Source: Sycon ciliatum (taxonomy: Eukaryota > Porifera > Calcarea > Leucosolenida > Sycettidae). From it: DNA of 64,000 nucleotides. A program made the position numbers and the translations under genes. Each line of letters starts with the position of its first letter. The first letter of the stretch is position 1. The stretch is from contig NC_088643.1 in NCBI RefSeq assembly GCF_964019385.1, positions 80,441,199-80,505,198 of the forward strand, given 5' to 3'. The notes beneath the pieces are model-generated. The model saw only the letters and a list, made by a program, of their open reading frames with translations. It had not been told where the DNA came from and made no database searches. Of the stretch, positions 11,561-63,134 are shown in pieces.

Positions 11561-11576
11561 TCTTTACTATAAATTA

Positions 11577-11745: not shown

Positions 11746-12395
11746 CTGCTGCTTGTTACTGCTGCTTGTTACTGCTGCTTGTTACTGCTGCTTGTTACTG
11801 CTGCTTGTTACTGCTGCTTGTTACTGCTGCTTGTTACTGCTGCTTGTTACTGCTGCTTGTTACTGCTGCGTGTTACTGCTGCTTGTTACTGCTGCTTGTT
11901 ACTGCTGCTTGTTACTGCTGCGTGTTACTGCTGCGTGTTACTGCTGCGTGTTACTGCTGCTTGTTACTGCTGCTTGTTACTGCTGCTTGTTACTGCTGCT
12001 TGTTACTGCTGCTTGTTACTGCTGCTTGTTACTGCTGCTTGTTACTGCTGCTTGTTACTGCTGCTTGTTACTGCTGCTTGTTACTGCTGCTTGTTACTGC
12101 TGCTTGTTACTGCTGCTTGTTACTGCTGCTTGTTACTGCTGCTTGTTACTGCTGCTTGTTACTGCTGCTTGTTACTGCTGCTTGTTACTGCTGCTTGTTA
12201 CTGCTGTTTGTTACTGCTGCTTGTTACTGCTGCTTGTTACTGCTGCTTGTTACTGCTGCTTGTTACTGCTGCTTGTTACTGCTGCTTGTTACTGCTGCGT
12301 GTTACTGCTGCGTGTTACTGCCGCGTGTTACTGCCGCGTGTTACTGCTGCTTGTTACTGCTGCTTGTTACTGCTGCTTGTTACTGCTGCTTGTTA
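11732..12395. repeat. 13-bp minisatellite, about 51 units
   Basis: A 13-bp unit TTACTGCTGCTTG repeats without interruption for about 664 bp, with minor variants (GCGTG, GTTTG, CCGCGTG) clustered at a few places. Because 13 is not a multiple of three and the unit has no stop in any plus frame, all three frames are open and give the same Leu/Val/Thr/Ala/Cys/Tyr cycle. This accounts for three overlapping long ORFs that look like membrane proteins. Confidence 0.95.
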
Positions 12396-14684: not shown

Positions 14685-16100
14685 CTAGTCCTCCCAGTCC
14701 TCGTCATCATCATCAAACTCATCATCTTCATTGTCGGAGTGAATGACCTTGCTACGATCAGCCAAGGCCTTGGCAAGGGCATTCGCCATACCACCTCCAC
14801 CGGCTGCTTCCGGCTCATCCTTCGTAGAGGCGACGCCTGAACCAGCTTCAACCTTCTTGAGTGATGCACCAGCGCGGATCGAGTCAAGCAGACCACCGCG
14901 GCTACCACCACCACCACCGCTTGGCGCAGCGGCTGGTGGGGGTCGTGGCCCTCCACCGGGCGGTGGCCCACCTCCTGACGGTGGAGGTGGTGGTGGTGTC
15001 GGTGCTGCTGGCGGCGGTGGAGGAGGTGGTGGTGCAGCTCCACCTCCGGACGATGGCGGAGGAGGTGGACCAGAACGGGAAGACGGCGGTGGCGGTGGAG
15101 CTCGTGCCCCACCACCATGTGATGGCGGCGGCGGTGGAGGCGGTGGACCTCCTCGCGAGCTGGGTGGTGGTGGAGGGGGGCCACCACGCTGTCCCCCTGC
15201 TGCTGGTGCTGGTGGAGGTGGTGCCATGGCGGCGCCCAGGCCCCCCAGACCACCATTGCTGTCCATCTCACGCACAGCCTGCTCTATGCCACCATGCTGC
15301 TCAATGTAGTTGAGAATGAACTCAGCCGTATCTCGGTCCTGCATCTGCTCCTCGGTAACACCAGCAGCGCTAAACAAACGCTTCCATTCTGGTGCAATGT
15401 TATTGGAGTCGAATCCGCTCACGGGATCCCAGCCGATATGTGACAGATGCTGAAAGTTACTCGGACCGGAAATGTCGATTTTCCTGATCTTGCCTTTGCC
15501 GTCCTTGTTTTTCTTTGATTTTTTATCATCTTTCTTGCCCCAGAATGAAGGTGAAGGGTCTTTCTTACTGGACTTCATTGTATTAGGGGCTGGTTCTGGT
15601 GTTGCTGCTGGAAGTGGTGGGGGCTTTGAAGGAGTAGGTGTAGGCGGCCCTGGCTTTGTGGCGACAGGCTTCTTATTCGTCTGCTTTGCCATACGCCTCT
15701 CCTGGCGTTGGGAAATCTTCCTCTCCAACTCCTGTGCAAAATTCATTGCCTCCCCCTCATCTGCAAAATTCAGACCGATCGTGCAGTTATCGCCTTGAAA
15801 CATGTGGAAATATGGCTTCGGTTTCTTGTAGGAAAATTGACTGAACAGTTCTTGATCCCAAACGACTTTGTAGTCCTCCATCTCTATCAAACGAATATAG
15901 TAGCTCTTCTTTGGGTTGTCCTTGACAAAGACAATAACACCAGTGTTCGTGTGCGTCCATTGTGTCGGCTGGGGCTGAGCTTTGTGCAATTGGCAAACTG
16001 TGATCGCCATTGCAACTCGGCGGTTTCCCAAAAGCGAGATGATCTTCTGATTCTCCTCATTACTAAGCAGGTTAGAGCGGGGAACTTCAGGGTTTGCCAT
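14685..16100 (-). CDS. WASL: WASP/N-WASP family actin nucleation-promoting factor
   Basis: A single uninterrupted 471-codon frame with every WASP domain in order. An N-terminal WH1/EVH1 domain spans residues 12-135 (VFVKDNPKKSYYIRL, GLNFADEGEA). A basic stretch at 178-206 leads into the GBD/CRIB at 206-278 (ISGPSNFQHLSHIGWDP), which binds Cdc42-GTP and holds the protein inhibited. A polyproline region at 293-395 would bind profilin and SH3 proteins. One WH2 motif at 400-418 (GLLDSIRAGASLKKV) binds G-actin, and a connector helix at 438-454 and acidic tail ending DEDWED contact Arp2/3. The role is Cdc42-triggered branched actin assembly in the cytoplasm. There is one WH2, as in WASP, rather than the two of N-WASP. 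The gene has no introns, unlike RPA1 nearby; a retrocopy origin is possible. Start chosen at the ATG just before the conserved WH1. Confidence 0.95.
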   Translation of the reverse strand: MANPEVPRSNLLSNEENQKIISLLGNRRVAMAITVCQLHKAQPQPTQWTHTNTGVIVFVKDNPKKSYYIRLIEMEDYKVVWDQELFSQFSYKKPKPYFHMFQGDNCTIGLNFADEGEAMNFAQELERKISQRQERRMAKQTNKKPVATKPGPPTPTPSKPPPLPAATPEPAPNTMKSSKKDPSPSFWGKKDDKKSKKNKDGKGKIRKIDISGPSNFQHLSHIGWDPVSGFDSNNIAPEWKRLFSAAGVTEEQMQDRDTAEFILNYIEQHGGIEQAVREMDSNGGLGGLGAAMAPPPPAPAAGGQRGGPPPPPPSSRGGPPPPPPPPSHGGGARAPPPPPSSRSGPPPPPSSGGGAAPPPPPPPPAAPTPPPPPPSGGGPPPGGGPRPPPAAAPSGGGGGSRGGLLDSIRAGASLKKVEAGSGVASTKDEPEAAGGGGMANALAKALADRSKVIHSDNEDDEFDDDDEDWED

Positions 16101-16515
16101 CTTCCAGGCCTAACGCCTAACGCCTACACTACGAATACACTGAAAATGCAAGACTGGCTTAGGATAGGGAGAAAGAAGACTAATTCCAAGGCATCTCCAG
16201 CAAGGAGAAACTGAACGAAATGGATAATACACAGCGCGGTTGGCCCAAAAGCTGCGATCTACAAATTGAAGTGCACCGTAGAGTCTATGAGCTTCACGTA
16301 CCGTGTGTGTACTGTGCGCCTGTAGCTGTGTCTTTTTTGACGAGTGTTTCCGGTTCTTCACTGACTTCAGTTCACAGTTTCACAGTGCACCGTAGTGTGG
16401 TTCAGCACTGGCAGCCTCACCTCATTCCGGAAGAGCTGCGTAGTGCGCATATAAATGCCCCATATACACACAGGCAAGACTCGGCAAGATCAAAGAGTAG
16501 ACTACGTAGATTATC
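16101..16515. other. WASP 5' flank, no further gene
   Basis: Upstream sequence of WASP; no clear TATA box or second reading frame of interest. Confidence 0.4.

Positions 16516-42083: not shown

Positions 42084-42157
<74 letters not shown>
42084..42157 (-). tRNA. tRNA-Asn(GTT)
   Basis: 74-nt cloverleaf on the minus strand. The acceptor stem pairs GTCTCCG with CGGGGAC. The A box TGGCGCAATCGG, anticodon loop CTGTTAA (anticodon GTT) and B box GGTTCAAGCCC are all in place and match the standard metazoan tRNA-Asn. A T-rich run just downstream (42068-42078 read as TTTATTTTTTT) is the expected RNA polymerase III terminator. There is no intron, and CCA is not encoded, as usual in eukaryotes. Confidence 0.97.
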
Positions 42158-45624: not shown

Positions 45625-46150
45625 TCCAAGCATTTTGGAATGTACGACAAATTCTTTATACTCTTTGCTCTTAATCACTAGATCCGTTACACATAATACG
45701 TGTTGCCTGTGAATGAGATGATACAGATCTAGAGAGAGAGAGAGAGAGTGATACTGGACCCTAATATTTTTTTGCTTTGGGCGTGTTGTGTGGGCCATGG
45801 GGCAAGCACCTTAGGCTTAGTCCCACTCTGCTTTCTTTTGTTATTTTGAAAACTAGAGTGTTGCGGCAACCTACCCAACAGGTGGCTTGAGTGCCAGGTG
45901 TACAGACTCAGTTTTGACTTACCGACCAGTTCTTTCCAGCCCAATGATCGATGAATGCGAAATGACGGAGTGTCCAACAAACATCAGCCGTGTGATTGCT
46001 GTTCGCGCAGCAAAACCTCAAACTAATATCAGGTTAGGGTAGAAGGTGTCCCTAGGGAACAGAAAACACCCTGCTATTGCCCTCGACCGACATCTGAGAC
46101 TACGAGGGCCAAGTAGAGTCCACCGCAAGTTTCGGAAATAATTCGGCCAT
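45625..46150. repeat. Interspersed repeat shared with 63.24-63.89 kb
   Basis: Collinear with 63235-63890 over about 520 bp (shared AACTAGAGTGTTGCGG, CCAACAAACATCAGCCGTGT, TTCGGCCATTCCTG). Each copy also holds a few private indels. Both copies stop at the same base on the right. Superfamily unknown. Confidence 0.7.
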
Positions 46151-46196
46151 TCCTGGTAGATCTACGGCTGGGTACTTCACTCAGTTCACTATTCAG

Positions 46197-49100
46197 GTGA
46201 GTGCGGAAGAGTCTAACATCGTGTACCTCGGCGTTATTAATGAGCCAGCAGACTCCAAGACAACAATGAAGTCTGTGTTAGATAAGCTGCATGGCATCTA
46301 CGGCGTTGGCAAAGTTACAAAATGGCTTTGCGTGGTTGGAGACGGCAAAACTGATGACCATTTGCTAAACCTGCAGTCAGAGCACGGCAGTGAGCTCGAT
46401 TGGGTTGTGCCATTCATTGGCGATTGGCACACGCTCAAAGCTCTGCAACCCGTACTGATGAGGGTGTACTGGGACGCGGGCCTGAAGCAACTTGCGAGAG
46501 CAAAGGGATTTAAAGGTGAAGCTCTCACCAGCCTTGAGAAATGTGGCAATTTCCGGAAGACACACAACTTCATTCTGTCTGCATACCAAGTCATAACAAT
46601 GTCCTTGGACGCATGCTCGGCAACGTACAGCGATGCACAATGCAAGTACGATGAGGTGTGGGAATTTTGGAGTGCGTTCGCCAGCAGAGATTGCATCATT
46701 TACATTGCTCTTTGGGTAGCCATTCGGTCACGCAACTGGCAACTGCGTATTGCAGCACTGAAAATGGCTGCCCCACTGTTTCATGCTTTGGACAGACCGT
46801 TCTATTTGTGGTTGGCGCCAAGACATCTAAGCCACATGGGCGCTTTGCCACAAGAGATCCAGCAGCATTTCCAGAATGGAGGGTTTGCGGTTGGCCTCTC
46901 GAAGACGTCATTCAAGACAGTTGGAATTGACGAGGCACACGAAATGTGCATTAATCGCAACTTGAAAAAGCGCTAGTGACACCTGATGCGGATTACTTCG
47001 ACCGTCAAGTGCACTACTTGCCACAAAGAGCGCACATGATGTCCAATCTTTCAAGACAGCTCTTTCCTACAATTAACCCAAGCAAAGAGAAGAGTACATC
47101 CGAAGCCACAAACGGGACCACTCCAAGTGAAGCTGTGTTTAAAGGCAACTGCCAAGCCATGGAGAAGCTCCTAACAGATGCAGGCCTGTTCCACAACAAT
47201 GGCCCACGGGTACTGCACAACGTGTTCACTGGTGAAGTGGCTACGCAAGAAATGAGAGCAGATTTGTTAAGTTTTTACAGTACTGGCACACGGACATACC
47301 TTGCGTATGTTGAGAGTCGGATCCTCCGCATCCCAAGCGCTAGCCCTCCTCAACGACAGCATTGATTGCGTACCTTTGCAAAGGCAAGCGAGAGGAAGAA
47401 AGCCCACAGCCAGAAAAACAAAGACAACAAACTGGTTACAACGTGCCTCAAACGCCGCCTTGCTTTCTCGCAGACACATGGCACAACTGCAAATGGCATT
47501 GGCGAACAGCTGATTGTGACACCACGGGCTCTTACAGACGATGGCAGGCTGCCAAGGAAAGGTGCTAAATCGACTGTCACTAAATTCTTTGAAGGCCGGT
47601 ATGATAGTATCATCACAGCAAAACTTCCTTCACAGATGCTAACAGCTACGACAGCCATTATCTATGATGCTATGTTCGTGATTATCACCTCACCAATCGG
47701 TACTCACCGGACATTCGCGGATTATGCCACGTTCCTCATCCAACGGTGGATAACGCCGTGGTATAGGTTGGGCATACAGTCGGTTCACCTGGTCTTCGAC
47801 CACCCAAACGTAGCTGGTGTCAGCCCGAAGGATCTTCTTCGGGAGCAAAGTGATGCCGTGGGCGATGCGTCTACCCTGTGCACATCAGAGCTGTGCTGCA
47901 ACCATGAGTCAATCACCGGAGACATGGCACTGCCAAAGAGCTGGAGGAAGTTCTTGTCTTGTCGGAAATGCAAGAGAATGTTAGTTAATTTTATTACCAC
48001 GTTTAGCCTCTTCAATTCCCTGCACTTTCTCCGGCAACCGCATCAAGCCTTTGTGACCGGAGGTGGCTTGGACGGGGACTTCACTGGCAAGGCACTTGGG
48101 ACAGCGTACGGTGATCCAGTGGTAAAACAGCTAGACGTGTATGCGTCCGATGCAGAAGAGGCCGACTTTCGAGTGTGGCGTCACGCGGCAGCAAACGACC
48201 CAGTAGTCGTGTACAGTCCAGACACGGACACCTATCATGTCGCCCTATCTGGACGGGAAGTTGCAGACAGAAGTATTGCTGTACAACTGGATATGCCTGG
48301 TGCACTGGAACAGAGGTTTTTGCTCCTAAGCAAATTGGCCAAGGCCATCAATGGCGATCCAGATTTGGCCAAGGTGCCCAGCGATAGTCGTCTGATGCTA
48401 CTGCAAGCACTATTCGTTCTGACTGGGTGCGACTACTTGTCCTACTTCTCTGGCATCAGCAAATTAACATTCTACAAGATCATGTTCCAATAATATGCTT
48501 CATTCATCACGAGCGGCGTGGATGCATTGGGACTGCTGAGTGACACACACAGGCAGAACGGACAGCGTGGATACTTGGCATTCCTACGACTCGTGGGCAC
48601 AGCATACTATCAAAAGCATGTTGCAGCTTTTGAAGCCAACAGCCCGCACCCATTGTTCAAACAACAAGCTACAGAGACACCAGTGGACCAGCACAATACC
48701 TGGCTGTCAAAGATCAGGGATGCTGTTTGGCAACGAGTTGATTCGGAAGATGATTGTGTACCATCAGCGTCTGCCCTGCTTCTTCACTGGAAACGTGCTT
48801 GCTGGGTATTGGATATGTGGCGCCAGGCTGAGCGACCCACAGTACAGTGCCCACCATTGAATGGAAATGGGTGGCTTTTGTGTGGCAATGCACTTTCTAT
48901 TCATTGGGAGCTAGAGGAGCATGCAGAGGTGGTGAGGCAACGGGTCTTGGCTTTGACCAAGGGTTGCAGCTGCAAGAAGGGTAGCTGCGAGTCAAAGCGA
49001 TGCAAATGCCGGAAATCTGGCAAAATCTGTAGTCCTGGGTGCAAATGTCGCCACTGCACCAACACCGGCGGGCTTGTAGTGTCCCTGGAACACAGCAGCA

Positions 49101-49240
49101 GCAGCAGTGAATCCTCCAGTGACGATGAATCTGAACAAACCCAACAACAGCAAATCACAGTGGGTGATAATGAGAGAGGCACAATGGCCATGGACAGCCT
49201 AAATGGTGACATGGACAGTGACAATGATATCACTTGCTGA
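46197..49240 (+). pseudogene. DUF6589 / PIN-like nuclease / CXC element protein
   Basis: About 1010 codons, nearly one frame. The N-terminal third carries VVGDGKTDDHLLNLQSEHG and VPFIGDWHTLKALQPVLM, the pattern of DUF6589. The middle has a PIN/FEN1-like set: VHLVFDHPN, VVVYSPDTDTYH and LTGCDYLSYFSGISK, with acidic residues spaced as in metal-dependent nucleases. The C-terminus has a CXC (tesmin/CRC-type) metal-binding motif at 48964-49056 (CSCKKGSCESKRCKC, CSPGCKCRHC), then an acidic Ser-rich tail. Damage is light: a one-base loss in an A run near 46968, TGA at 47363 and TAA at 48491. Family knowledge: DUF6589 and CXC are found together in multicopy animal genes of presumed transposon origin; the enzymatic role is inference. 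The true start may lie upstream, as a splice acceptor-like CTATTCAG precedes 46197. Confidence 0.72.
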
Positions 49241-49598
49241 CGTACAAGGTATGTTGATATATTACGGTAGCGGTACAGTAGCAGTAATGAGATATGAGAT
49301 GTTGATCTACGTTCACTTTCCGAGCTGCGGATCCATTGGGATAACCAGTTAACACCACAGCTGGTGATACAACTCCTTATTTTAATGTCAGTCAGTGGCC
49401 TCACGCGGACGTGCGACTAGTTGTTGGAGGTGACAGCGTTGTGAATAGCTATACTGGCTCTCAACGTCTGTTTAGCACAACTCCATGAGCGACTCTGACT
49501 CACGCTGCTACCTGGGGCTTCACGAGGTGTTTGTCGTGCTGGAAACAAAGCGTCTCTGTAAGTTGGTATCCCTGGTGATGGTTTGGCCTGGAGAGCAG

Positions 49599-49606
49599 TA
49601 TATAAG
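49599..49606 (+). promoter_or_regulatory. TATA-like box upstream of the hammerhead
   Basis: TATATAAG lies 45 bp before the ribozyme. If used, transcription would start about 30 bp downstream, placing the self-cleavage site near the 5' end of the transcript. Inference from spacing only. Confidence 0.3.
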
Positions 49607-49644
49607 TGGTGCTTTTCAGGCACAATCTTCCTCAGCCTACTCAA

Positions 49645-49690
49645 GCTCAACTGATGAGGGGTGAATTCCCCGAAACACTGTGTATTGAGC
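49645..49690 (+). ncRNA. Type I hammerhead self-cleaving ribozyme
   Basis: All invariant parts are present in order. Stem I is GCTCAA (49645-49650) paired with TTGAGC (49685-49690), 6 of 6 pairs. The core CTGATGA is followed by stem II, GGGG/CCCC around the loop TGAATT. The core GAAA is followed by a 3-bp stem III (ACA/TGT around CTG). The cleavage triplet is GUA, so the cut falls after A49684. The open end is at stem I (type I), and the very short stem III is typical of metazoan hammerheads carried by retrozymes and Penelope-like elements. No reverse transcriptase of that class is visible nearby. Activity is inferred from structure only. Confidence 0.85.
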
Positions 49691-50080
49691 AGGGAGTGGT
49701 GCTTTCTGACAGGTTTGCCGAGCGGAAGGTGCGACGTGCTCCTCGTGTGCTCCGGATGGCAGTCGTGAGTCAGTCAAGTGTCAAGTTCGGCAAGAAGCGT
49801 GTGCTCCTCGTTGGAGCAACCAACTTCATTCAGTGGCATGATAGGAATTATCAGTGTAAAATTAATCTTGGCCATAACACACATTTCATTTCATGAAGAG
49901 GTTTCACTACTTAGAATGTTAGATGTGTTGGCTACAGTACATGTTCCACTCTACATCTCTTCCATATCATCCATTCAAATAATCCTGACAAAGGATTCGA
50001 CGTTGTATCTTTTCTGTGCCCTACACAGCTTTATACGCACGTCCTTCTGACTAACACATCACAGTAAAAATGAAGCAGAT

Positions 50081-50518
50081 TGTAAACTAATCACTCCCTC
50101 CGACGGACACACGCGACAAGCCAGAGAGCCAGAGAGTAATGGTTCACATTGTATTTTGGGAGAGCAACAAAACTAAGACTAAAGTCGAGTGCAAAGAAGA
50201 AAGAAGACGGAAGACCCGGTCCCAAACGAAGGACCAAGTCCAAAGGAGAAAATATGGCGGAGTATCAAAATGACCAGCACGTGTCACGCACCAGCTCCAC
50301 ACGCGCGACACCACAATCACTGCATGCATGCACTGCGCTGCCTTGATACATGATCGGGCCGCGGGCGCCAGGAGAACAAAGCGCTAGCACGGACAACACT
50401 AGCGGAACTAGCTGGAACAACAGTGTTACATGCATCATGACAAGAGAACAAGATATTGCATGAAGGTCGACACACATGCACAGTTAGGTGTGATAGTTAC
50501 AGGTACAGTTCCATTTCA
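50081..50518 (-). repeat. 3' LTR of the gypsy-like element
   Basis: 438 bp, TG...CA on the plus strand, preceded by the target duplicate AGAT (50077-50080). I found no differences from the 5' LTR when comparing the two by eye, and the same three small ORFs occur in both. Confidence 0.95.
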
Positions 50519-50561
50519 CCCCATCACCTGGCGACAAGAATGCAAAAAACTCTTGGCCGTT

Positions 50562-53500
50562 TTAGCTGTAACGGACCGGGGGCTGGATTGCGTTTCGATC
50601 TCGCAAGCTGTAGCGATTACCATCCGGAGCGTCTGCTTGGGCTGGCATTAATTCCATGCCGAGCAGGTCTGGTTCTTCGTTAGCATCGGCTGCCGCGCCG
50701 TCATCTGCCTGACTCTCAGCGGCCGTCGTGCGCATCACAGGGTTGTCGGGTGAATCAGGCTTCAGCAGATCGACGTTCACGGTCTTTGGGTGCTGGCGCT
50801 CATCTTGTCTGGCTATGACCACAGTCGATGGCGAGACGATAGCCGCAACACTCCATCCAGGCTCATACGGGGACAGCCGCTTCTGCCTTCGTCCAGGCCG
50901 CAGTAACAGGACAGGATCACCCACAGAGTATGCGCAGGGCTCGTTCGGTGAGTCAATGAAATCCCGGGCTGAGAGCTCCGTCTCAATGATATCCCGCACA
51001 CGAGCTACGCGCGACGACAACTCTGACGCCCACTGGGTCATATCGCACGCTTCCTTCACGTCGTCAATGATGATATGGCGAGGCTGCCATCCGCTCATTG
51101 CCACCATGGGTGACAAATGGGTCGAGCCGTGCGGACGATTGCGGTAATAAAACAGCAGCACATCGAGGTCAGCACGCCAGTTCGGTGACTCTTCGAGGGT
51201 CTTGCGGATGAGGGTGAGGAGCGTTCGATTGAACCTCTCTGCTGTCCCTTGGGACTGGGGGTGACGGACTGCTCCGGTTCGCACACGCACACCCATCAGG
51301 CGAAACAAAGACTCCACTATGGCGTTGCGGAACTCCACGCCGTTGTCCAGCCGCACGACCTCGGGAGCACCCCATCGAAAACACATGGCCGAGAAGGCTG
51401 CAGCAACACTAACAGCGTCATGTCGGCGGAGCGGGCACACCTCCACCCACTTGGTGAAATTGTCCACACAGACGAGGACACAGCCGTATTTGCCGCTTCC
51501 ATCACCACCGAGTTCCAGCGTGTCAATCGTGACTTCGCTCCATGGGGACCCAGGTATGTCGGCGCGGGTCGGCGCAGCTCTGGCACCCTTCCGTCCACTA
51601 GCAGACTTGCATTGCGTGCAGTTATCAACATGTTGGTGACAAGCCGAAGCAATGCCAGGGAAGAAGCAACGGCTTCGGATCATGCGATACATGACCTCCC
51701 AGCTCGCATGTCCCGAGATCTGGTGTGCATTAGAGACAACATCGGCAACGAGCGATTGCGGCACGACAGGAACACGAACGAGGCCCTCGACAGGTAGCTT
51801 GATGCTTCTGACAAGGACACCATCATCAATCTCCAGTTGGGACGCCGCTGCTGCATAGGGTGCAGTAACCGTTGCACCGGACTCCAACTGCGCCACTGCT
51901 GCCAGTATCTGGTCGTCAGTACCTTGCTTCGCCACAATCTTCGCGAGAGGGATTGGTCCGGGCAGGACTACAGCTGCACCTGCGACATCACTTTCGCTGT
52001 CGCCCAGTAGCGCCTTGCAGAACTTCACCCACGTAGGAGGAACTCGAGTCAGCACGTCTGCACGATTTTGGTCAGTCGGCACCCACTCGATCGTGACAAC
52101 GAGCCCTGCCGTGGCAATCAGGTCGGCGAGAATCTGGAGTCGACGCTGGACTAGTACACCGTGCAGTCCTTTCGTCCTCGTCCGGCGCACGTCGCCAGTG
52201 ACATCTCTGAGCCAACTCGCAACCGTCTTGGAGTCGGTCATCAACCGCACATGTTTCATCTCCCAGCTCACGGCCAGCGAAAGACCTCGGATAGCGGCCT
52301 CCAGCTCCATGATGTTGATGTGACGCGCATCACCGTGGGGTCTCAGCCAAGAACGATCCTCCATGACAGAGCCATCGATCTCCAGGACGACGCCAAGACC
52401 GATGTTGGACGCGTCAGCCCAAACTACGCAGCGACGAGGCTCGGGAGAGTTGGCACGCCATTGGCCCTGTGCAGGATCACCATCACCAGCTAGCCGCGCG
52501 TCCACTTCACCACACAGCTTCAAGAGTGAGGCTGGGACCTGTTCATCCCATGCCGCGCTAGCGTTGGCCATGCGCTTCAAGTAGCTGCATGCGGGTCTCA
52601 GCCAACCACAGACAGGCACGTGCCCCGTCAGGCGGCCACACCAGCTGAAGATATCGCGCTTGGTCACCGGCTGCTCGAGCTTCAGGCGAATGTCGGTACG
52701 GCGCGACCACTGCACTTGGCCATCGTCGCCTTTCGTCAACTGAAGGCCCAACACACGGGACTCAGCAAACGCCTCTGCAGGCTTCGTTGGCAAACTGTAC
52801 TCAGCCATGTGGGCGGCCACTGCGTCAGCCTCGGCAGCGGGAGTCATCAGGTCGTCGACGTAGTTGTCGACAGCAGGAAACTCTCTAGTGACCCACCGGA
52901 CGATGATATCCATGAACTTGGGCGCTACGTTGAGGCCGAAGCCCATCCGCGTCATCACAAACGCTTGGCCCTGCCAGACCACCATCTGAAAACGTTGCAG
53001 CTCGGGTGCAACGTGCACCTGGAGATAGGCCTTCTTGATATCGAGTAGTTGAAACTCCCGAGGGTCACCGGCCAGTCGCCATTTGCGCAGCGTCTCCTCA
53101 CAGACGGGTGCTGAGCGGCCAGGCTGCGACATCAGCAGCTGGTTGAGGAGCCGATAATCTAGACATGGTCTAACCGGCGTTGATGCTTTGTGCTCCTGCA
53201 ACTGAGCAATCAGCGGTAACACAGCACCAGGGCTTCCGTGAACATCCTTGTCGTGAGGAACGAGCCAACCCACATCGATCCATTTCTGCACCTCCTCTGC
53301 AAACAGCTGCTCCTGGTCAGAAGTGAGCTTAGAGCGAGAGTACTCACTCACGCCAGGTCCCACCGGATGAGTCGGAGGACTGCCTGATTTCCAGCGCCAA
53401 GAGAGGACCCACCGACGGGCGCTGCTGTCCCAGGTGACATCCCCGTCATCCGTGGACAGGGTGACATCATCACCATCACGCTGCACGCGTACATTGGGAA

Positions 53501-54236
53501 ATGGATGGCGATCGCCGCTCGAAGACGCACCACAGACTCCCATGCTGTCCCCTGGATCGACTCGGTCGTAGCCAAATTCCACGCCGATCAAGGCACCATC
53601 ACCGGAGTACTTCAGTCGAAGCCCGCCACTGCCAATGACCACATCATTGCCGACGAGCACATCAGCGTTGACCACGCTCAGATTGTCGACCACATACGCT
53701 TGCACTTCCAGGCCGGGCAGAGAGACCGCACCGTCAGAACGGGCCAACCGAACGGCAGCTGACCCCACTAGCTCTAGGGGACTACCATCCAAGGCAAGTA
53801 TGGGTGGAGCAGCCGTGGGTGAAAGACTGATGCCATGCTGAGTGGCGAAGGACCGCGAGATGAGCGTACGAGTTGAACCGGTGTCTACGACAGCCCGCGC
53901 ACGAACACTCGATTTCGCCGCTCCAGCAGACACATCCACGTACATACGAGGCAGCTTTCCAGGAGAGGCCAGGGAGACTAGGCATGGGTCGTTCTCCTGC
54001 TCAGCTGGTTGTGGGCGAGCACTTTCCACGGCAGCTGCAGTCCTGTCCTTCCTTGCCAGCCAATCTCTCCTCTCAGGGCAGTCAGCCTTTACATGGCCAG
54101 CACCGTCGCAGAACAAACAGGTAATCGGCTGGCTCCTTCCACCTCCGCCTGCTCTTCTGCTGGGACAATTCCTGCGGATGTGCCCAGGCTCGCCACACTT
54201 GAAACAGAGGCCCGAGGGCTTCGCGCTAGATCCAGC
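50562..54236 (-). CDS. pol: Gypsy-type Pol polyprotein with zinc knuckles
   Basis: An intact frame that enters from the non-element side at an acceptor-like TTACAG (54237) and runs about 1225 codons to a stop at 50562. Domains in order: two CCHC zinc knuckles (CFKCGEPGHIRRNC, CLFCDGAGHVKADC); aspartic protease (VVDTGSTRTLIS); reverse transcriptase with its catalytic YVDD; RNase H (WADASN, E in IMELEAA, LMTDSK); integrase with an H-H-C-C zinc motif and the D-D-E core (TIDTLE, RLDNGVEF, GTAERFNR). It makes cDNA from element RNA and inserts it. The zinc knuckles normally end Gag, so here the gag/pol join falls just before them. The frame nominally opens further upstream to 54506, but that part is translated pyrimidine-rich DNA. 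Confidence 0.93.
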   Translation of the reverse strand, partial: AGSSAKPSGLCFKCGEPGHIRRNCPSRRAGGGGRSQPITCLFCDGAGHVKADCPERRDWLARKDRTAAAVESARPQPAEQENDPCLVSLASPGKLPRMYVDVSAGAAKSSVRARAVVDTGSTRTLISRSFATQHGISLSPTAAPPILALDGSPLELVGSAAVRLARSDGAVSLPGLEVQAYVVDNLSVVNADVLVGNDVVIGSGGLRLKYSGDGALIGVEFGYDRVDPGDSMGVCGASSSGDRHPFPNVRVQRDGDDVTLSTDDGDVTWDSSARRWVLSWRWKSGSPPTHPVGPGVSEYSRSKLTSDQEQLFAEEVQKWIDVGWLVPHDKDVHGSPGAVLPLIAQLQEHKASTPVRPCLDYRLLNQLLMSQPGRSAPVCEETLRKWRLAGDPREFQLLDIKKAYLQVHVAPELQRFQMVVWQGQAFVMTRMGFGLNVAPKFMDIIVRWVTREFPAVDNYVDDLMTPAAEADAVAAHMAEYSLPTKPAEAFAESRVLGLQLTKGDDGQVQWSRRTDIRLKLEQPVTKRDIFSWCGRLTGHVPVCGWLRPACSYLKRMANASAAWDEQVPASLLKLCGEVDARLAGDGDPAQGQWRANSPEPRRCVVWADASNIGLGVVLEIDGSVMEDRSWLRPHGDARHINIMELEAAIRGLSLAVSWEMKHVRLMTDSKTVASWLRDVTGDVRRTRTKGLHGVLVQRRLQILADLIATAGLVVTIEWVPTDQNRADVLTRVPPTWVKFCKALLGDSESDVAGAAVVLPGPIPLAKIVAKQGTDDQILAAVAQLESGATVTAPYAAAASQLEIDDGVLVRSIKLPVEGLVRVPVVPQSLVADVVSNAHQISGHASWEVMYRMIRSRCFFPGIASACHQHVDNCTQCKSASGRKGARAAPTRADIPGSPWSEVTIDTLELGGDGSGKYGCVLVCVDNFTKWVEVCPLRRHDAVSVAAAFSAMCFRWGAPEVVRLDNGVEFRNAIVESLFRLMGVRVRTGAVRHPQSQGTAERFNRTLLTLIRKTLEESPNWRADLDVLLFYYRNRPHGSTHLSPMVAMSGWQPRHIIIDDVKEACDMTQWASELSSRVARVRDIIETELSARDFIDSPNEPCAYSVGDPVLLLRPGRRQKRLSPYEPGWSVAAIVSPSTVVIARQDERQHPKTVNVDLLKPDSPDNPVMRTTAAESQADDGAAADANEEPDLLGMELMPAQADAPDGNRYSLRDRNAIQPPVRYS

Positions 54237-54995
54237 CTGTAAGGAGGGGGCTAATCTTCTCGCAGAAAAGGGGGAAAAGGGGAGAAAAAGAGGGGGAAAA
54301 GAAGAGCGGGAAATTGAAAAAGAGGGGGTAAAGAATGGCGGGAAAAGGAAAAAGAGGGGGAAAAGGATGGCGGGAAGCATCCACCGTTTGAATGTGCATA
54401 CATCTAAAGTGAGGCTATTTCCAGGCTGTGCACAAGCCGGTACACGTCCACCACGGCCTCTCGCAGCCTCCTCCTCTTCCTCCCCCCCCCCCCCCATCAC
54501 ACACAATGTGCCGATTATCCTAATGTCAACTATCCAAATGATTAATTATCCAAAATAATTGCTTGAGGGGTAGAAGATGAGTTTCAAAGTTAGTGATTTT
54601 CGTCGCTCGGGGCACCATTGAAGCGATTCACAAGATGTATTAAAACAGGTTTGAGTCAAAATGTGTAATAATAGTGTCATTAATTTAGAGGAGCATGAGT
54701 GCACCTAGTTCCTGTTTCACTGCTGAAGAGAACGAAAATGATGAAAACATGCTGGAATATGCATGATTTAGATAGATGTGTGACTGCTCTCTTATCCGAA
54801 CATTCTTCTCATCTGAACCCTCTGGAGACAGCCCGCGTCCCGAGGGGTGGGGATAATTGGCACTCTCCTGTACATCAAATTCTATTCTTAAATTATATAC
54901 ATATTGTAGAGCTCTTTCTGCTGCCGGGAATGAGAAAACACATCCCAGGTAAGGATACGCCCCTCAAGGAAACACAGCTGGTGGATTCCAACAGT

Positions 54996-55191
54996 CAGGG
55001 GCGTCGCACACGGTACGGTCACTACGGTATTGACCGTACCACTTTTTGCCCCAGATACCCGTGAGTCAACAAAATACACTGATCTGGGATCTAAAATTCA
55101 AAAAATTTCGGCTCAGCCACCACTCCCCCACGAGTCAATTGTACTTCAGATGGCTGACCGTACCACACTAAAATACCTTCCGACGCCCCTG
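54996..55191. mobile_element. hAT-like MITE, CAGGGGCGTCG ends
   Basis: 196 bp; both ends start CAGGGGCGTCG and the element is flanked by ACAGT. CAGGG-type ends are common in hAT elements, though an 8-bp duplication would be expected. A fragment with GACGCCCCTGAC near 20320 may be related. Confidence 0.68.
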
Positions 55192-55417
55192 ACAGTAGTA
55201 TGAAACTCATACACAATCAATTAGAAATACTTTGGAGAATAAACCTTTGTTGGTGAAACAAAGTTGGGCGAGAGTATGATGTTCAAGTAAAACGATACTA
55301 AAGTGCCGTAACGTGAAGAAAGGAACGTAGTGCACAAGTTAATGAAGATAAATTCACATGCAGAACACAATATGCCCAGATGTGGAAATTTAAGTCAAGA
55401 TTAGCAGAATATACACA

Positions 55418-55571
55418 CATGCAAACACACACACACACAAGCGTGTGCACACAGACGCAAACACACGCAAACACACACACACATATGCACACATATGCAC
55501 ACATATGCACACATACGCACGCGCACGCACGCACGCACGCGCGCGCGCACGCACACACACACACACACACT
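55418..55571. repeat. CA/CG dinucleotide microsatellite
   Basis: About 150 bp of CACACA, ATGCACACAT and GCGCGC words; accounts for the His/Thr and Cys/Val ORFs here. Confidence 0.93.
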
Positions 55572-56116
55572 GTTGGCTGCTATAATGCGATGGCAGCCTA
55601 GACAGAGGAAACAAAGTTTACACAAGCAAATTCCTACTCTTTTTCTTTCTTTGTCTTCTTCTTCTTCCTCATATTCAATTCAAGGCAGGCTCTTCTATTT
55701 TTTTTTGCTTCGGCCAACCTCGTTTTGGGATCTGACCCAATTTATTGGGGCAGTACAGGTACCCTGAACCTGAGAGTGTCCTTCTGATGTCATCGCTCTC
55801 CTACATTTTCTGCACGTCTATATTATTCTTTCTACGAGGACAGCAGAAGGACAGAAACAAAGACATCCACACCATTTTTAAGACTGCATCTTCCAAAGAA
55901 CACATCAAAAAGCAAATTCTACACGCCAAGCATCGGTTCACGCCGTAACAAATCTCCACGCCATGAAAAATTCGATCGAATGCCTGGTGGGAGATGCTTT
56001 TTAAAAGGCTTGCATACATTTTTCACAAAAGACATTGTTGTGGCTGCCACCGGATTCGTACAAGAATATGTCAACTTCTAATCAAGGACTGTAATGAGTT
56101 CTGCCTTACGTATTAG

Positions 56117-56440
56117 AGGGGAAGTCTGCTGAATTTTTTAATTTCAGGACCCGTAGAGTTTGGGGCGCTGAGTCGAATGTTCTTTTCCGAGGAGGCTGCG
56201 GTCCATGGTTCGTCAGATACGCCCAATCGAAAATGAGCGAAAGCGAGCACGCAGTCTACCTGATCCAGGTGATAAGGTCACAGTGTGCAGCCAGGTAGCC
56301 ACACCATCTATTTGTGTGCAAAATGGCCAATATTCGAAACGCGTTCGATTTGAGAACCATCTGTCGCAGCTTCTTCGGACCAAGAGCATTCGACTCACTG
56401 TTACAAGCCCTACGTACCCTGTGATTTTCAGCTCGGCAAA
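56117..56440. mobile_element. Diverged relative of the foldback element
   Basis: Opens with GGGGAAGT and contains GGGCGCTGAGTCGAATGTTC. The complementary block (GACCAAGAGCATTCGACTCA) is near 56379. The arms are much shorter and more diverged than at 43797-44657, so this is a tentative family member. Confidence 0.45.
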
Positions 56441-56543
56441 ATTTGAGGATACCCCGTTTTTAGCCGTTTCCGAGTTGGACTTTTTACATCCGCTGGCTTC
56501 TGCGTGCATGCCATAGTCCACAAACATACGGAACACTACACTA

Positions 56544-56792
56544 CAGTACTGCCGCGCACCGAAGAACGGGGTCAGGGTTCTAGCCTAGCCCGTTCTTATT
56601 TTGGCGAACACAGCAGTTTCGTTCATATTCGATGGTACAGTCTTACATGTACATTTAAGCAGAGTTATACGTCTGAGTGTACATCATATTCATATTGTAC
56701 ATTACGTTTCTACTTAGACCGTTCTTAAAAAATAGCGAAATCATAGCCTGGCCGTTCATCGGCGGTCCGTTCTTCGGCGCCCGGCAGTACTG
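56544..56792. mobile_element. Pogo-like MITE, CAGTACTG family copy 2
   Basis: 249 bp flanked by TA; ends start CAGTACTGCCG and share a CGAAGAACGG block. Sister of 9978-10142. Confidence 0.8.
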
Positions 56793-57998
56793 TAGTAGTA
56801 GTAGTACATGACTACACCCGCACTGCTGTGCTAGCGCTACGCGAGTCGTGTGGTAGATCTAAATGTACAAGAGACTAGTCAATACACGGACGTGTCATGT
56901 ACTGCACCCGGTATGTAGTTAGAGAAGGTGTGCTCCTCCGGGCCGGTGATTGTGCTTTGAGAAAGAAATATTTTAGTTTTCCGCTTGGAATAGTCCAGCC
57001 TCATTTATGCTACAACGATGAGTCCACAACCGTGACAAGCGACAAAACCGCGAACAGCTCCCGGACCTAAAACGTTCAGATCCCGAAGTGTTGTGATCTT
57101 TGAATCGAAGAGTCGTGTCCGTGGTTCCAAGAACCTGCATTGTATATCCAATCGAGCAGCGTCCGAGCTATGTTTGCACCAAAAATCGTGAAATTTTCCA
57201 CTGTATCATGGAAATGCCACACCCTACAGTCCCGCTGTTACCATATTTTACCGGTATAAGTCGACTTATTGAATTGAATTCAGTGCAAACAGGAATTTCG
57301 GATAATTGACCGTTTGGACAGTTGACATTCGGATAATCGGCATTCTACTGTAATCCTAGTGCATGCAATGAAACATACTTGACTGTTGGGAGTCTTGCTG
57401 CGTCAGTGCAAATTGGCAGTTAATGCTAGAAGCTGCAGTGAACAACATCACAAATAGAAAATAAAGAAAAACAAATACAACTGAACTTTGATACTGGAAA
57501 TTACAGATCTGCTGCCCGCATCCACATGTCCATATTCTACATGTGCGATTGATCCTGCAAGATCTTCACTGCCCGTCTAATTGAGGATGGCACCCCAAAT
57601 AGAGCGGACCGCTTCTAAACCAATCAAAGACCCAGGTTGTTATACTCCAGCAACCGGGCAAAGACCTGTCACCCACCCATGACCCATCAGCCCATCTCCT
57701 TATGCTCACATTTTGGTGTAGTAGTTGAGCACCTGTCCTTCCTTCATCAAGTGGATATCCTAAGCATGTGACTTACCGCTGGTATATCTCTGCACATCCA
57801 TCTTGACTGGTTGTCAAGTCCCTTTCCGGAGAGGTAGAGTGGATGGTAGGGTCAGTGCAGTCCTGGCCACGCCATGAGAAAGAAGACATTTTCCCATCAG
57901 GAGAAGGCCAACATCCTCCCTCTGGGTAGTGCCTTGATACCTGCAGTGCAGTGCAGTAACATTAAACTGCAATTGAAACTGTCTCCATGCCATTGTTA

Positions 57999-58235
57999 AG
58001 CCCAGTTCACATTCGACGGGGCGCAACGGGACGCGACATAAGGATCGACGGGAAACGCCGGGACGGTCACCCCGGCACGGACTGTGCCTTATGACTCGCA
58101 CCATTCGCTGTTGAACATCGCAAAGACTGGAGCATGTCGTGTCGTACGAATTGTACAAGATTTTACAGCTCACCCCAGCCGTCACAGGCCCTTACGTCCC
58201 GTACCGTCAGCGTTGCGTCGAAAGAGAACTAGGCT
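57999..58235. mobile_element. MITE, AGCC(C/T)AGTTC family copy 1
   Basis: 237 bp flanked by TTA. Ends read AGCCCAGTTCACATTCGACG and AGCCTAGTTCTCTTTCGACG inward. Large parts of its interior (GACTGTGCCTTATGACTCGC, TTTTACAGCTCACCCCAGCC) recur at 60750-60923. Confidence 0.78.
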
Positions 58236-60193
58236 TTAGAAAGATTACGTGTTGGTATGTGCTCCTAATTACACACAAATATACAAAAGGTATATAAAGA
58301 GAAAGCATGATCCACCCCATCATTGACACCAACAGCCCGGCACAAGAGCAGCAGCACCTGCATTCTATTAACCCAAAGTTCATCTGCGAATATACTCACA
58401 GAGTCGTCTCCTTTACTGTGCCCGACCTTGGAAGAAAACAACACAGCAACGTAGTGTTGGTTTCGGTGAGGGCTTCTACGTTCACATGAACACACAGAAA
58501 AGTACAATATATTTCCAAACAGACGCCAACTAGTATAACCAAACAGCAACGACAACACCACAAAGACCTAACAGTCTCTTGAGCACAAAGTGTCTGGGAT
58601 AAAAAAAAGAGCAGAAGTTCACCATCGACACTGGTATTATAAAACTTTCTACAACTGCTGCAGAGGCAGCAGCAGGGTTCTAGTGCCCAGACCCAAAGCT
58701 CATCTGAGAATTTTCGCCATTGATACAAAGCAACGACCATGGTAGCAGCAGAGAGTAACAGCAGCAGCCGTTTGAGCAGCAGTATCAGCAGTCTCCAGCT
58801 TCAAGGGATTGACCTAGCAAATTTTACAGTAACATGAAAAGTGCAACTGCACTCTTTCCGGCACCAAATATGCCATGCTGTCCCCCGCTGCAAAATAGAG
58901 GACAACTCTCAACTGTCGCCAACACCTTGGCCCAGAGGGAGTCTTTCCTTCGACATTCGCCCCGGCCAAAGAAGGTCAAAACCCAAGTGGTGTAATCATG
59001 TATCTGCTTCTCCTATCGCGACACTGGCAAGGCTTGTATAGGCACGATAAATTGATAATACTGTATGCATATAACAAAGGCAAACGCACAAACTCACGTC
59101 CATGCACATGTGCACGGACGGTGTCGTTGGCGTACACACACACACACACACACGCGCGCCCACGCCCACGCATGCACAGGACAAAGGCATGTGCAAAGGA
59201 GCATGCTCATAAAAGCACAGGACAGGCACACGACTGATCTACGGATGTATCACGACATTGAAGGGACGGAGCTTGCAGCAAGCCTTCACGCTCTGGAGAT
59301 TCCTGAAATACATAAATACATGTCAGCAGTAAATAGTTGCAGCATAAACATTTCCACGGGGACTGTGCAGCTTCACTAACCTTAACTTCAGTCTCCCCAG
59401 AATGCAGCAATCAGACAACGGCTACGAAGAGGTGCAGGAAATTTGAACAACTGTTTCAAAAGCAGTCCTCCAAGCCTTCTGCACCAACAGGTGATTCAGT
59501 TCGTGCTCTTATACCATCCTGGCAGGTAGAGACATTTTCTAATAACACGAAGAGCACAATCATCAAGGTGGGCAAATCCTCAAGAGAGAGTGCACCCTAA
59601 CTTACACTACAAATCATTTACTGGACACTACTGGACAGAGCGTCCAGTCCATTCAGTCCAGGGGAGAAGAGGCAAAGGCATAGGGCTCCTGAGAAGATGA
59701 AAGGGCAACACATTATCATTACTACATTAATTTTATTATTGGGGGCAGACGTCTTCTCTGTAAAATATGAGGACGAAAGGCACATCAGTACTCACATCCC
59801 TGCTCATATCACTGCTCATCCCTGTCCTCTACGAGGGCAATGCATTTAGGGCTGAAACAAGTATACAGATAACTCGCAAACCGATCGTTTTAAGAGCGCA
59901 ATCGATAATCGTTAGGGTTCAAAGCGAATGCAAACGATTTTTTATGCATGCATACCAGTGGCAGTATTCTAGCCCTTGCACTCCATCCAATTGTGGATAC
60001 GAGTGCAATCGTGTACTTTCAAGCGCAGTAATATTGATGCGTGGCTATGAAAGAGATCGGGAGTCAAGACGGTATCTTTTCGATTGATTCGTTGCGGAAG
60101 TTGGTGATAAGAGCTTCAAGCCAAAGGGTGACGACAAGCCTGATTCTTCGTTCTAGAAACAACAACATGAACTCCTCTAGTTCATATTGATAA
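58236..60193. other. No gene recognised; CA tract at 59.14 kb
   Basis: A short (CA)n tract near 59137-59155. Nothing else identifiable on either strand. Confidence 0.45.
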
Positions 60194-60923
60194 AGCCTAG
60201 TTCAAATTCGACGGGACGCGGCGTAAGGATCGATGGGAAGCGACAGGACGGTCTGACGGCGTCCAATGTGAACATCAGGAACGGGAACGCAACCATACTA
60301 CCGTACGGATCGGGAAGCGACGGGAAGTGTTGGATCAGTTCAACTTTTCATACCGTAGACGGGCATAGACGGAGACACAAGCGTACAAAACGGCTGCATT
60401 TTGAGTGAGAACAGGAGGCGGCGTCGTGCGCCATCCACTCCCGATTCGTACTGGGAAATTTTTAGGATTTCGAACACTGCGCTTCCCATGATAACTCGCA
60501 GAATGGCTAACACGACTTGAGTTGAATTTTAGCAAGATAAGATCTCATGTCACTTATGGTATTTAGGGATAGTTTAGGAGAATGACAGATGAACTGTTTT
60601 ATCATTTCCTAGGGCTACTATTCGAATGGCACAACTTTCAGGGCTACTTTTTTGTCTCCATGAAAAACTGGTATTGTGAATTTGATTTCGCTTCATTCAA
60701 GGAGAAATAATTGAAAAGAAGTCCCGAAAAACAAGAAATTAGGTCCGAAAGTCACCCCGTCACGGACTGTGCCTTATGACTCGCGCCGTTCGCTGGAGAA
60801 CATCGCAACGACTGCAGCATGTCGTGTCGTACGAATCGTAAAAGATTTTACAGCTCACCCCAGCCGTCCCGACAGGCCCTTACGTCCTGTACCGTCAGTG
60901 TTACGTCGAATGTGAACTAGGCT
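60194..60923. mobile_element. MITE, AGCCTAGTTC family copy 2
   Basis: 730 bp; ends AGCCTAGTTCAAATTCGACG and AGCCTAGTTCACATTCGACG inward. Flanking triplets are TAA on the left and TTA on the right, so the duplication is imperfect. The longer interior suggests an insertion relative to the 237-bp copy. Confidence 0.7.
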
Positions 60924-61784
60924 TTAGACCAGTCAGATGTCTACAGGTGTCGACACAATTGCCTGAAATGTTTACAGAATACCAAACACTGAGCGGTAGC
61001 CTGGGTATATTTAGAGTGTTTGACTGGTGGCCACAGCTAATGTAGCAAAGGCATCATGGAATTTCTTCATAGTCTTGTGTTCGAGGTGCACGACTACAGC
61101 CGGAAAGAATCTATAATAATTATGAACCAACAATTATAATTGATCTCAATGTCTCAGTACTCATACTCCTTGTCAGTTTTGTGCTAGATTGTGCACGTCT
61201 GACTATTCGAAATCTGGTTTAGTTGGTGGACTCGATTGCATAACTTGTGCCCACATTTTTCTATGTTACAATGATATTCATCGCTAAAGAGATTGGTTGA
61301 TCGCTTGGAGTTATTGAATGATCGTTTCAGCCCTAATTTATTTTCACCCTGGCCACAGCACTAGGCGAAATTCTCTGACACGGCCTTTACCTGCATCCAC
61401 TGCTCTTTCGCATCACGACGAAGGACATGCAGGGGTTCTCTCTGAGCAGAGGAAAGTAGCCATCGCCACCACCACCATCACCATTCACCGACAATACTAG
61501 AGAGACTATTTTCCCCGTCGTGGGTACTTCCAATAAAGTAATTCCACTTACATAGGTACCGTCAGCGGCGCCACCATGTTCCCAACAGTGTATTCCTATC
61601 GTGGGTACTTCCACGGGCAATAAATTCGGCTCGTGCTGTCACGCGCAAGCCATCAAATTCCTATACCTCCGTTGCGCCAATTGCCTCTGCAAACAAAATT
61701 ATTTCAATGATTGGATTAATTCAGTTCTTTTCGCTCGTGCACGTCACGCCGGGTGCACTGCGCGCGGCCCATCTCCGCCCGTAC

Positions 61785-62002
61785 ATTGTTCATCTTGTTT
61801 CATCTTGTTTCATTCGCGGCCTATCTACGCCCGTACTTCGAGTTTCATTTGGTTTCATCTTGTTTCATCTTGTTTCATCTTGTTTCATTTTGTTTCATTT
61901 CGTTTCATCTCGGCCCCATCTGCGCCCGTACATTGGCGTTTCATCTTGTTTCATCTTGTTTCATCTCGTTTCATCTCGTTTCATCTTGTTTCATGTGTTT
62001 CA
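61785..62002. repeat. TTTCATCTTG minisatellite abutting gag
   Basis: About 18 copies of a 10-bp unit GTTTCATCTT, arranged in three blocks separated by a GGCC(C/T)ATCT.CGCCCGTAC spacer. The last units overlap the final codons of the gag frame, marking the junction with the block between gag and pol. Confidence 0.88.
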
Positions 62003-62634
62003 TCTGGGGGGAAGACGGGCCCGTCAACCTTGCCCTGTGAGTGTGACTTGGTACTGGTAGGACCACTCCTGGTCGCTGCACCACCCGACGAGGCGGCAGC
62101 TGACACACTGTCACCTCCGCTGGCATCTGAAATTCTCAGAGCTCGAACAATAGACACACAGTCGCTTATCGACATGTCCTTTCCCACGAGACTGAGCCGT
62201 ACTTGCCGGTTGTAGTCGGCAGGGAGGCCTTTCAACAACTGCTGCACTACCACAGGATCTTTGTCGTCTGTCACTTTGTGACCGGATAACTCCGCGAGGC
62301 GCTTCAGATCTGCAACAAATGCATCGGTGGACTCGTCGCACTTCATTTTCCGCACCACAAACGCCTCGTACGCAGCAGACTTCGTCATACTGAAGGACGA
62401 TAGCATCAATTTGACCACCTCGTCCTGCTTCTTTCGGTCCGCATCCGCCATTCCCTGAAATACCAGGAACGCGTCATCCGCAAGAAACAGAGGGAAATGC
62501 TTCATGCGCTTAGCCTCATCATCCCAGCCCTGGATCTCCGCAAGAACGAGGAACTTTGCCCAAAACTGTTGCCAGCTCTCATTGCTCTTGCCCCGAAAGG
62601 GCTTGACAAAACCGTCGACTTTCAGACTCGACAT
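61981..62634 (-). CDS. gag: Retrotransposon Gag
   Basis: 217-codon frame starting at an ATG 37 bp inside the primer-binding site. The helical capsid-like pattern (WQQFWAKFLVLAEIQGW, LLKGLPADYNRQVRLSL) is that of the retrotransposon Gag domain, which packages element RNA into particles. The expected C-terminal zinc knuckles are absent here and are found 7.7 kb away at the start of pol. The last few codons (DETHETR) come from the minisatellite, not from gag. Confidence 0.85.
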   Translation of the reverse strand: MSSLKVDGFVKPFRGKSNESWQQFWAKFLVLAEIQGWDDEAKRMKHFPLFLADDAFLVFQGMADADRKKQDEVVKLMLSSFSMTKSAAYEAFVVRKMKCDESTDAFVADLKRLAELSGHKVTDDKDPVVVQQLLKGLPADYNRQVRLSLVGKDMSISDCVSIVRALRISDASGGDSVSAAASSGGAATRSGPTSTKSHSQGKVDGPVFPPDETHETR

Positions 62635-62669
62635 CCTGAACTCCGCAGTCGCAACTCACGACGGCCCTA

Positions 62670-62693
62670 GTTCAATCCCGGGTTTCGGCACCA
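62670..62693 (-). other. Primer-binding site for tRNA-Phe
   Basis: Three bases inside the 5' LTR, a 24-nt stretch on the minus strand (TGGTGCCGAAACCCGGGATT onward) is complementary to the 3' end, including CCA, of metazoan tRNA-Phe, whose 5' end reads GCCGAAA. It fixes the direction of the element. Confidence 0.88.
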
Positions 62694-62696
62694 CGT

Positions 62697-63134
62697 TGTA
62701 AACTAATCACTCCCTCCGACGGACACACGCGACAAGCCAGAGAGCCAGAGAGTAATGGTTCACATTGTATTTTGGGAGAGCAACAAAACTAAGACTAAAG
62801 TCGAGTGCAAAGAAGAAAGAAGACGGAAGACCCGGTCCCAAACGAAGGACCAAGTCCAAAGGAGAAAATATGGCGGAGTATCAAAATGACCAGCACGTGT
62901 CACGCACCAGCTCCACACGCGCGACACCACAATCACTGCATGCATGCACTGCGCTGCCTTGATACATGATCGGGCCGCGGGCGCCAGGAGAACAAAGCGC
63001 TAGCACGGACAACACTAGCGGAACTAGCTGGAACAACAGTGTTACATGCATCATGACAAGAGAACAAGATATTGCATGAAGGTCGACACACATGCACAGT
63101 TAGGTGTGATAGTTACAGGTACAGTTCCATTTCA
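62697..63134 (-). repeat. 5' LTR of the gypsy-like element
   Basis: 438 bp, apparently identical to 50081-50518, followed on the right by the target duplicate AGAT (63135-63138). Confidence 0.95.

Follow-up and report, generated by a model that had tools for sequence, protein, structure and literature searches.

The window, a 64-kb stretch (C1:80441199-80505198) of a 538.4-Mb genome, contains a 46-nt motif at positions 49645-49690 that was originally predicted to be a complete type I hammerhead ribozyme in a metazoan repeat landscape. The question was to which kind of element this motif belongs, and how such an element is moved. The metazoan setting fits the genome size (538 Mb) and the WASP-like gene of the window (14688-16109, minus strand; WH1, PBD and WH2 in a single open frame). 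The interpretation as a whole was partly supported by the analyses described below.

Structure and detection of the hammerhead

The type I hammerhead was confirmed at 49645-49690 on the plus strand, with the core, the three stems including the predicted 3-bp stem III, and the GUA triplet intact. The following features were read from the sequence.

49599-49606, plus strand: TATA-like box TATATAAG, 45 nt upstream of the hammerhead, as originally predicted
49639-49644, plus strand: 5' side of outer stem I (ACTC, 49639-49642) and interior loop AA
49645-49650 and 49685-49690, plus strand: stem I, 6 bp (GCTCAA/TTGAGC)
49651-49657, plus strand: core CTGATGA
49658-49661 and 49668-49671, plus strand: stem II (GGGG/CCCC), loop TGAATT
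49672-49674, plus strand: core GAA
49675-49677 and 49681-49683, plus strand: stem III, 3 bp (ACA/TGT), loop CTG
49682-49684, plus strand: cleavage triplet G49682-U49683-A49684, predicted cut 3' of A49684
49691-49697, plus strand: interior loop AGG and 3' side of outer stem I (GAGT, 49694-49697)

Stem I is extended past the AA/AGG interior loop by a 4-bp outer helix, which was also paired in two computed folds. A structural scan for the core and three stems returned this one site across the two strands of the 64-kb window; Markov sequence (first order, same dinucleotide make-up) gave no match in 20.48 million strand-bases. Minimum-energy folding did not set the hammerhead apart (z -0.1 to -1.3 at four lengths).

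The covariance-model search that had been proposed as a check gave a negative result: Rfam Hammerhead_1 did not match the motif at the thresholds tried, including E<=10 on 141 bases. In six loci of the genome, the same model matched three other places, all below its gathering score of 34. These are another type I hammerhead family at L101:68-113 (minus strand; CTGACGA, GUC triplet by eye; 30.1 bits), L021:7300-7350 (minus strand, 26 bits) and L008:1905-1952 (20.8 bits). As these loci were scored, the Hammerhead_1 model is present in the library, and the variant in the window escapes it. Two further hammerhead-like cores (CTGATGAGCCGTCC...GTCGAAACG), 94 bp apart and by eye without stem II, were noted at window positions 11573-11754, where they adjoin a 51-copy array of 13 bp.

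The retrozyme copy and its family

The motif was found to lie inside a retrozyme copy of 430 bp that is flanked by an 8-bp target duplication, contrary to the earlier statement that no such element is recognisable around it. The features of this insertion are as follows.

49392-49399: left target-site duplication TCAGTGGC; the C at 49399 may instead be the element's
49400-49829, plus strand: retrozyme insertion, 0.91 unit (unit positions 46-476), one-armed, 5' truncated
49606-49615 and 49696-49705: GTGGTGCTTT words, both within one repeat unit
49802-49818, plus strand: hairpin TGCTCC-TCGTT-GGAGCA, about 10 nt before S1
49829, plus strand: site S1 (after ..CCAACTTCAT), putative start of reverse transcription, 145 nt 3' of the ribozyme cut
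49830-49837: right target-site duplication TCAGTGGC

Sequence common to other copies spans 49399-49829, and with the 8-bp duplication on either side of it the insertion was delimited as 49400-49829. The copy is 96.3% identical to the unit of locus L021 and 97-99% identical to the best matches among those listed. In L016 and L021 the hairpin near S1 carries a double change to TGTTCC/GGAACA. A second site, S2, lies about 36 nt beyond S1 in the unit and is absent from the window copy, which would represent a one-armed outcome primed at S1. Frames with DUF6589 and Tesmin CXC are located just left of the insertion (46098-49237, plus strand). To its right, an LTR retrotransposon occupies 50080-63134, with 439-bp LTRs that are 100% identical (50080-50518 and 62696-63134) and a pol frame at 50565-54545 (minus strand), in which CCHC and integrase scored above cut-off and protease, RT and RNase H more weakly. 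A tRNA gene is present at 42084-42157 (minus strand, 67.7 bits; anticodon GTT by eye).

Other genomic copies, the lack of which had been named beforehand as a sign of a chance match, were recovered by a DNA search with the window region: 148 matches came from the best 40 scored of 2352 first-look candidates. In the whole genome, the hammerhead core pattern occurred 7185 times on one strand and 7051 times on the other vs 1221 and 1178 times for a reversed control, counts that pool all hammerhead-like families. The full retrozyme unit comprises 476 bp in subfamily A (L021) and 480 bp in subfamily B (L012), and units occur singly or in tandem, up to about 12, so that the suggested check for tandem copies was positive. 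The GTGGTGCTTT words flank the motif as described in the original prediction; they are internal to each 476-480-bp unit, and are neither remnants nor boundaries of a monomer of about 90 bp.

The ribozyme stretch (unit positions 281-360) was 95-100% identical per 20-nt step when one A unit was compared with one B unit, and the step around the TATA-like box was 95% identical between the subfamilies. The remaining steps were 35-100% identical, with two others at 100% and the lowest at 35-60%. The 46-mer of the ribozyme was identical in 75 of 85 same-family core-pattern matches in merged loci, a count in which tandem units are entered singly and copies with a broken core cannot match the pattern.

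The family is an abundant metazoan-type non-LTR retrozyme, in agreement with the predicted relationship of the motif to the hammerheads of animal retrozymes and Penelope-like elements (PLEs). As in the metazoan non-LTR retrozymes described in PMC7229834, an intact type I hammerhead resides in a short non-coding repeat that is present as single to tandem units, target duplications exceed 4 bp, and PLEs are found in the same genome. The unit of 476-480 bp exceeds both the units of about 170-400 nt reported there and the 150-450 bp given as usual, and falls within the range of 'from 150 to >1000 nt' given for retrozyme circles. The GC content (0.511, 0.521 and 0.528) differs from the values below 50% reported in the same source, a trait that is descriptive and non-defining. 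The retrozyme is not a PLE: in place of a frame encoding RT and a GIY-YIG endonuclease, the longest ATG-initiated ORFs comprise 80 (A), 48 (B) and 59 aa (window copy). Plant LTR retrozymes are likewise non-autonomous, hammerhead-bearing retroelements (PMC4918200); they differ by type III hammerheads, LTRs and 4-bp duplications (PMC7229834).

Insertion ends and target sites

Many retrozyme insertions have two arms arranged head to head, with the minus arm preceding the plus arm. The outer ends of these arms are mainly at S1 (..CCAACTTCAT in subfamily A, 145 nt downstream of the cut) or at S2 (..GAAGTCGCAACTTCTAAGTTCGTA). Ends were assigned to S1 within 13 nt and to S2 within 12 nt, windows that together cover about 11% of the unit. 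Three sets were evaluated; their ranking followed sequence similarity and took no account of the ends, and they cover the best-scoring candidates. Set 1 contained 35 groups (29 of 34 merged loci), from which one group cut by the locus end and 13 groups without the minus-plus order were left out. Set 2 contained 26 clusters from the DNA search with the window region, of which six one-armed clusters and one complex cluster were left out; in two of the six, inspection by eye revealed an S2 arm of 11 nt, which was not counted. Set 3 consisted of 39 subfamily B clusters evaluated from match coordinates alone, and 15 without the minus-plus order and four minus-plus clusters with an unclassified end were left out.

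One arm ended at S1 and the other at S2 in 18 of 21 uncut two-armed groups of set 1 (three had another end), in all 19 simple two-armed clusters of set 2, and in 20 of 24 two-armed clusters of set 3 (four had an unclassified end). One case of set 3 repeats a case of set 1, which leaves 56 different two-armed insertions whose ends could both be classified. All 56 are reciprocal; S1/S1 or S2/S2 did not occur among them, and seven further insertions have an end elsewhere or unclassified. If ends were independent and equally likely, this result would have a chance of 2^-56. S1 and S2 are roughly balanced on the left side. The exceptional ends of set 1 are at unit positions 418 (twice, a segmental duplication), 431, 448, 351 and 321. 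A plain plus-then-minus order was not encountered in any cluster of the three sets, and the five complex clusters show the orders '-+-' (three), '+-+' and '-+-+' (one each). At L011:7621-8306, a minus arm has its outer end at the ribozyme cut (..ACACTGTGT) instead of at S1 or S2.

This reciprocal footprint is the new part of the finding. Metazoan retrozymes as described in PMC7229834 differ in this respect, and the terms 'inverted' and 'head-to-head' have no occurrence in the main text of that paper. A literature search by title and abstract, with most subscription papers and all preprints outside it, returned no paper on inverted retrozyme insertions or on PLE-type tails of such insertions.

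The target-site analysis covered 59 insertions, of which set 1 supplied 34 and set 2, minus its complex cluster, 25. At least 8 nt are shared at the ends of 46 of these, vs 6.3% of 2000 mismatched-flank controls; for insertions outside microsatellites the values are 35 of 48 vs 2.3%, and duplications there are mostly 12-13 nt. The flanks are 70% AT. Targets of (AAT)n type were found for 21 of 59 retrozyme insertions and (TA)n targets for none, with a background of 1 in 695 stretches of the 64-kb window for either type. One target sequence (TAATAAACAAGAAG) is common to three insertions (L019:5503, C7:32207965 and C11:2316620), and is either a hot spot or the result of copies of one insertion.

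Penelope-like elements and the mode of integration

Two families of the same genome were labelled as PLEs, partly by motifs typical of this group; for PLE-A, these motifs stand beside a match to RVT_1. For PLE-A, 97 matches were scored of 8073 candidates, and ten of the 97 fall within an 843-aa open frame, with a stop inside one of these ten matches; a GIY-YIG match to Pfam was not obtained. PLE-B has a 467-aa C-terminal frame with GIY-YIG at 19.7 bits, below the Pfam cut-off of 22.6, and carries a hammerhead-like core.

The reciprocal rule was found in both families. Eight head-to-head pairs of PLE-A were viewed and their ends read by eye; C9 was left out, as its ends could not be assigned. 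Six of the seven classifiable pairs are reciprocal, with sites about 31 nt apart; in three of the seven, a further PLE-A copy is present directly past (TA)n, and the pairing of arms is less certain there. The exception, C8b, is concordant (S2/S2) with arms of different sequence variants, and perhaps represents two insertions; the distance between its arms is no argument for this, since other PLE-A pairs are equally far apart. For PLE-B, all eight pairs are reciprocal by eye, one of them assigned via its target duplication. The targets are of (AAT)n type in 6 of 7 PLE-B and 0 of 7 PLE-A cases, and of (TA)n type in 0 of 7 and 6 of 7 cases, respectively. At two places, a retrozyme copy and the end of a PLE-B copy lie on either side of the same (AAT)n. 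These shared targets make PLE-B, or a similar PLE, the best candidate for the helper of the retrozyme. No clear homology of the retrozyme tail to the tail of PLE-A or PLE-B was apparent by eye, and such homology is not claimed from the short CGCCGA that they have in common.

Animal retrozymes were described in 2020, and PLEs were put forward as their helpers from shared traits and rated, also from co-occurrence, as strong or likely candidates (PMC7229834, PMC7761336). The insertion ends support this proposal, and the following reading is preferred, with a probability of about 0.76 for the whole: the retrozyme would be moved by a PLE-type enzyme with priming at two sites, and the hammerhead would act as processing ribozyme of a non-autonomous non-LTR retrozyme. 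Transcription would begin at the TATA-like box just upstream of the ribozyme. The multimeric RNA would cut itself at the hammerheads, and the monomers would circularise. A PLE reverse transcriptase/endonuclease may then bind the tail region 3' of the ribozyme and cut AT-rich DNA, often (AAT)n, with the stagger that yields mostly 12-13-bp duplications. Both target strands would prime reverse transcription at internal sites of the RNA, one at S1 and the other at S2, and each cDNA would be extended towards the 5' end of the RNA, in many cases for more than one full turn of the unit. Two cDNAs of the same polarity, one per target strand, would finally be joined head to head at their inner ends, and exactly the observed product is expected from such joining.

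The genomic footprint of the retrozyme corresponds to the integration mode of PLEs, with two internal start sites, a tail on one end and a duplicated AT-rich target. With a purified PLE, reverse transcription begins inside the RNA at two neighbouring sites, both strands are cut and extended, and ATT and AT-rich targets are preferred (PMC11167929). The PLEs of a rotifer are mostly arranged head to head, optionally carry a 31-bp tail on one inverted end, and show 8-10-bp duplications in the cases given (PMC3846280). The retrozyme resembles endonuclease-containing PLEs in the two adjacent internal starts, the head-to-head order, the duplications and the AT-rich targets described in these two papers, and also in the hammerhead upstream of the start sites and the tail on one inverted end, which is about 31 bp in PLEs. 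The distance between S1 and the cut is 145 nt vs about 85-92 nt in PAc, as computed from positions in PMC11167929. In the in vitro experiments of Frangieh et al., the two strands showed no difference in start site and ribozyme mutants were still inserted (PMC11167929); both results were counted against the preferred reading. The insertion ends can be counted and are direct evidence of a PLE-type reaction; they also suggest a helper candidate from this genome.

Target duplications, 5' truncation and 5' inversions are known from LINEs and would all be in line with a LINE-type enzyme as the mobilising agent, the inverted arms being formed by ordinary twin priming. Twin priming leaves an inverted segment with a variable internal outer end that does not overlap the other arm. 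In the retrozyme, both outer ends are at fixed 3' sites, with 56 of 56 classifiable insertions reciprocal, and the two arms of an insertion often cover the same unit positions, in some cases over more than one unit; mobilization by a LINE is therefore improbable, even with LINEs among the possible helpers named by Cervera and de la Pena in 2020 (PMC7229834). For L021, twin priming was rejected because both outer ends are S1/S2. A LINE-like RT frame near L009, L014 and L021 was also rejected as part of the element, since among the matches listed these loci have only the unit in common; the orientation of the unit relative to this frame varies, and L014 and L015 are a segmental duplication. The head-to-head order of palindromic copies would, without priming of both target strands, be given by self-priming on antisense RNA, which was favoured in 2013 for the PLEs of the rotifer Adineta (PMC3846280). 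No reason was seen why it should produce the alternation of S1 and S2 in 56 of 56 insertions, the outside duplication and the unequal arms, and it is regarded as an unlikely explanation, if a little less so than a LINE.

Homogeneous arrays of up to 12 units, with a mean divergence of 0.4% within vs 6.4% between loci (median 1.2%), would also be expected of satellite DNA spread by unequal crossing-over and gene conversion, in which the ribozyme is incidental. This origin is made very unlikely by copies that are dispersed, single or two-armed, and that have target duplications and fixed ends; growth of arrays after insertion is possible. That Rfam does not recognise the motif might suggest a chance match without function, an explanation that is scarcely credible for a dispersed and conserved family, given 0 matches in the 20.48 Mb of null sequence.

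With mobilization by a PLE-type enzyme as the preferred reading, the arms bear on the template. S1 is 145 nt 3' of the cut, so copying would start inside the unit and not at the 3' end made by the ribozyme. Arms are longer than one unit in 26 of 59, up to 12 units, and the template there would be a circle or an uncut multimer. Neither start site is used twice in a classified insertion, which suggests one RNA (or one RNP) per insertion. The reciprocal rule thereby constrains PLE integration, as two sites on one RNA seem to serve as starts for the two strands. A wider reading goes further and is put forward tentatively, at somewhat less than even odds: every two-armed insertion would derive from a single (circular) RNA in a two-subunit PLE RT, in which one subunit copies from S1 on one target strand and its partner from S2 on the other, the two following each other round the circle; the rule would be a general PLE signature, and the retrozyme a passenger of a PLE-B-like (AAT)n helper.

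Where a distinction could be made, opposite arms of an insertion were closer to one another than to other clusters: they differed by 0.24% vs 0.47% at C1:48865206, and by 0% vs 0.97% in the first group of C1:2636000. Of the 13 loci that contain at least two units, seven have an identical nearest copy at another locus, and arm identity is uninformative there for this reason. At C8:27941362, opposite arms are 0.24-0.49% apart although an identical copy exists elsewhere. A cluster of inner 5' ends near S2 (unit position 46 in the window copy, 31-42 in others) is not claimed, because the clusters of set 2 were selected for their resemblance to the window copy, a choice that favours ends of this kind. 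Inner ends near the ribozyme cut were not clearly enriched (3 vs 1.4 expected), and the ends therefore do not support a role of the ribozyme in insertion itself. In a single case, at L017:4462-4606, a 145-bp retrozyme piece begins with the first base past the ribozyme cut and ends at S1, as though reverse transcription had run off a cleaved 5' end.
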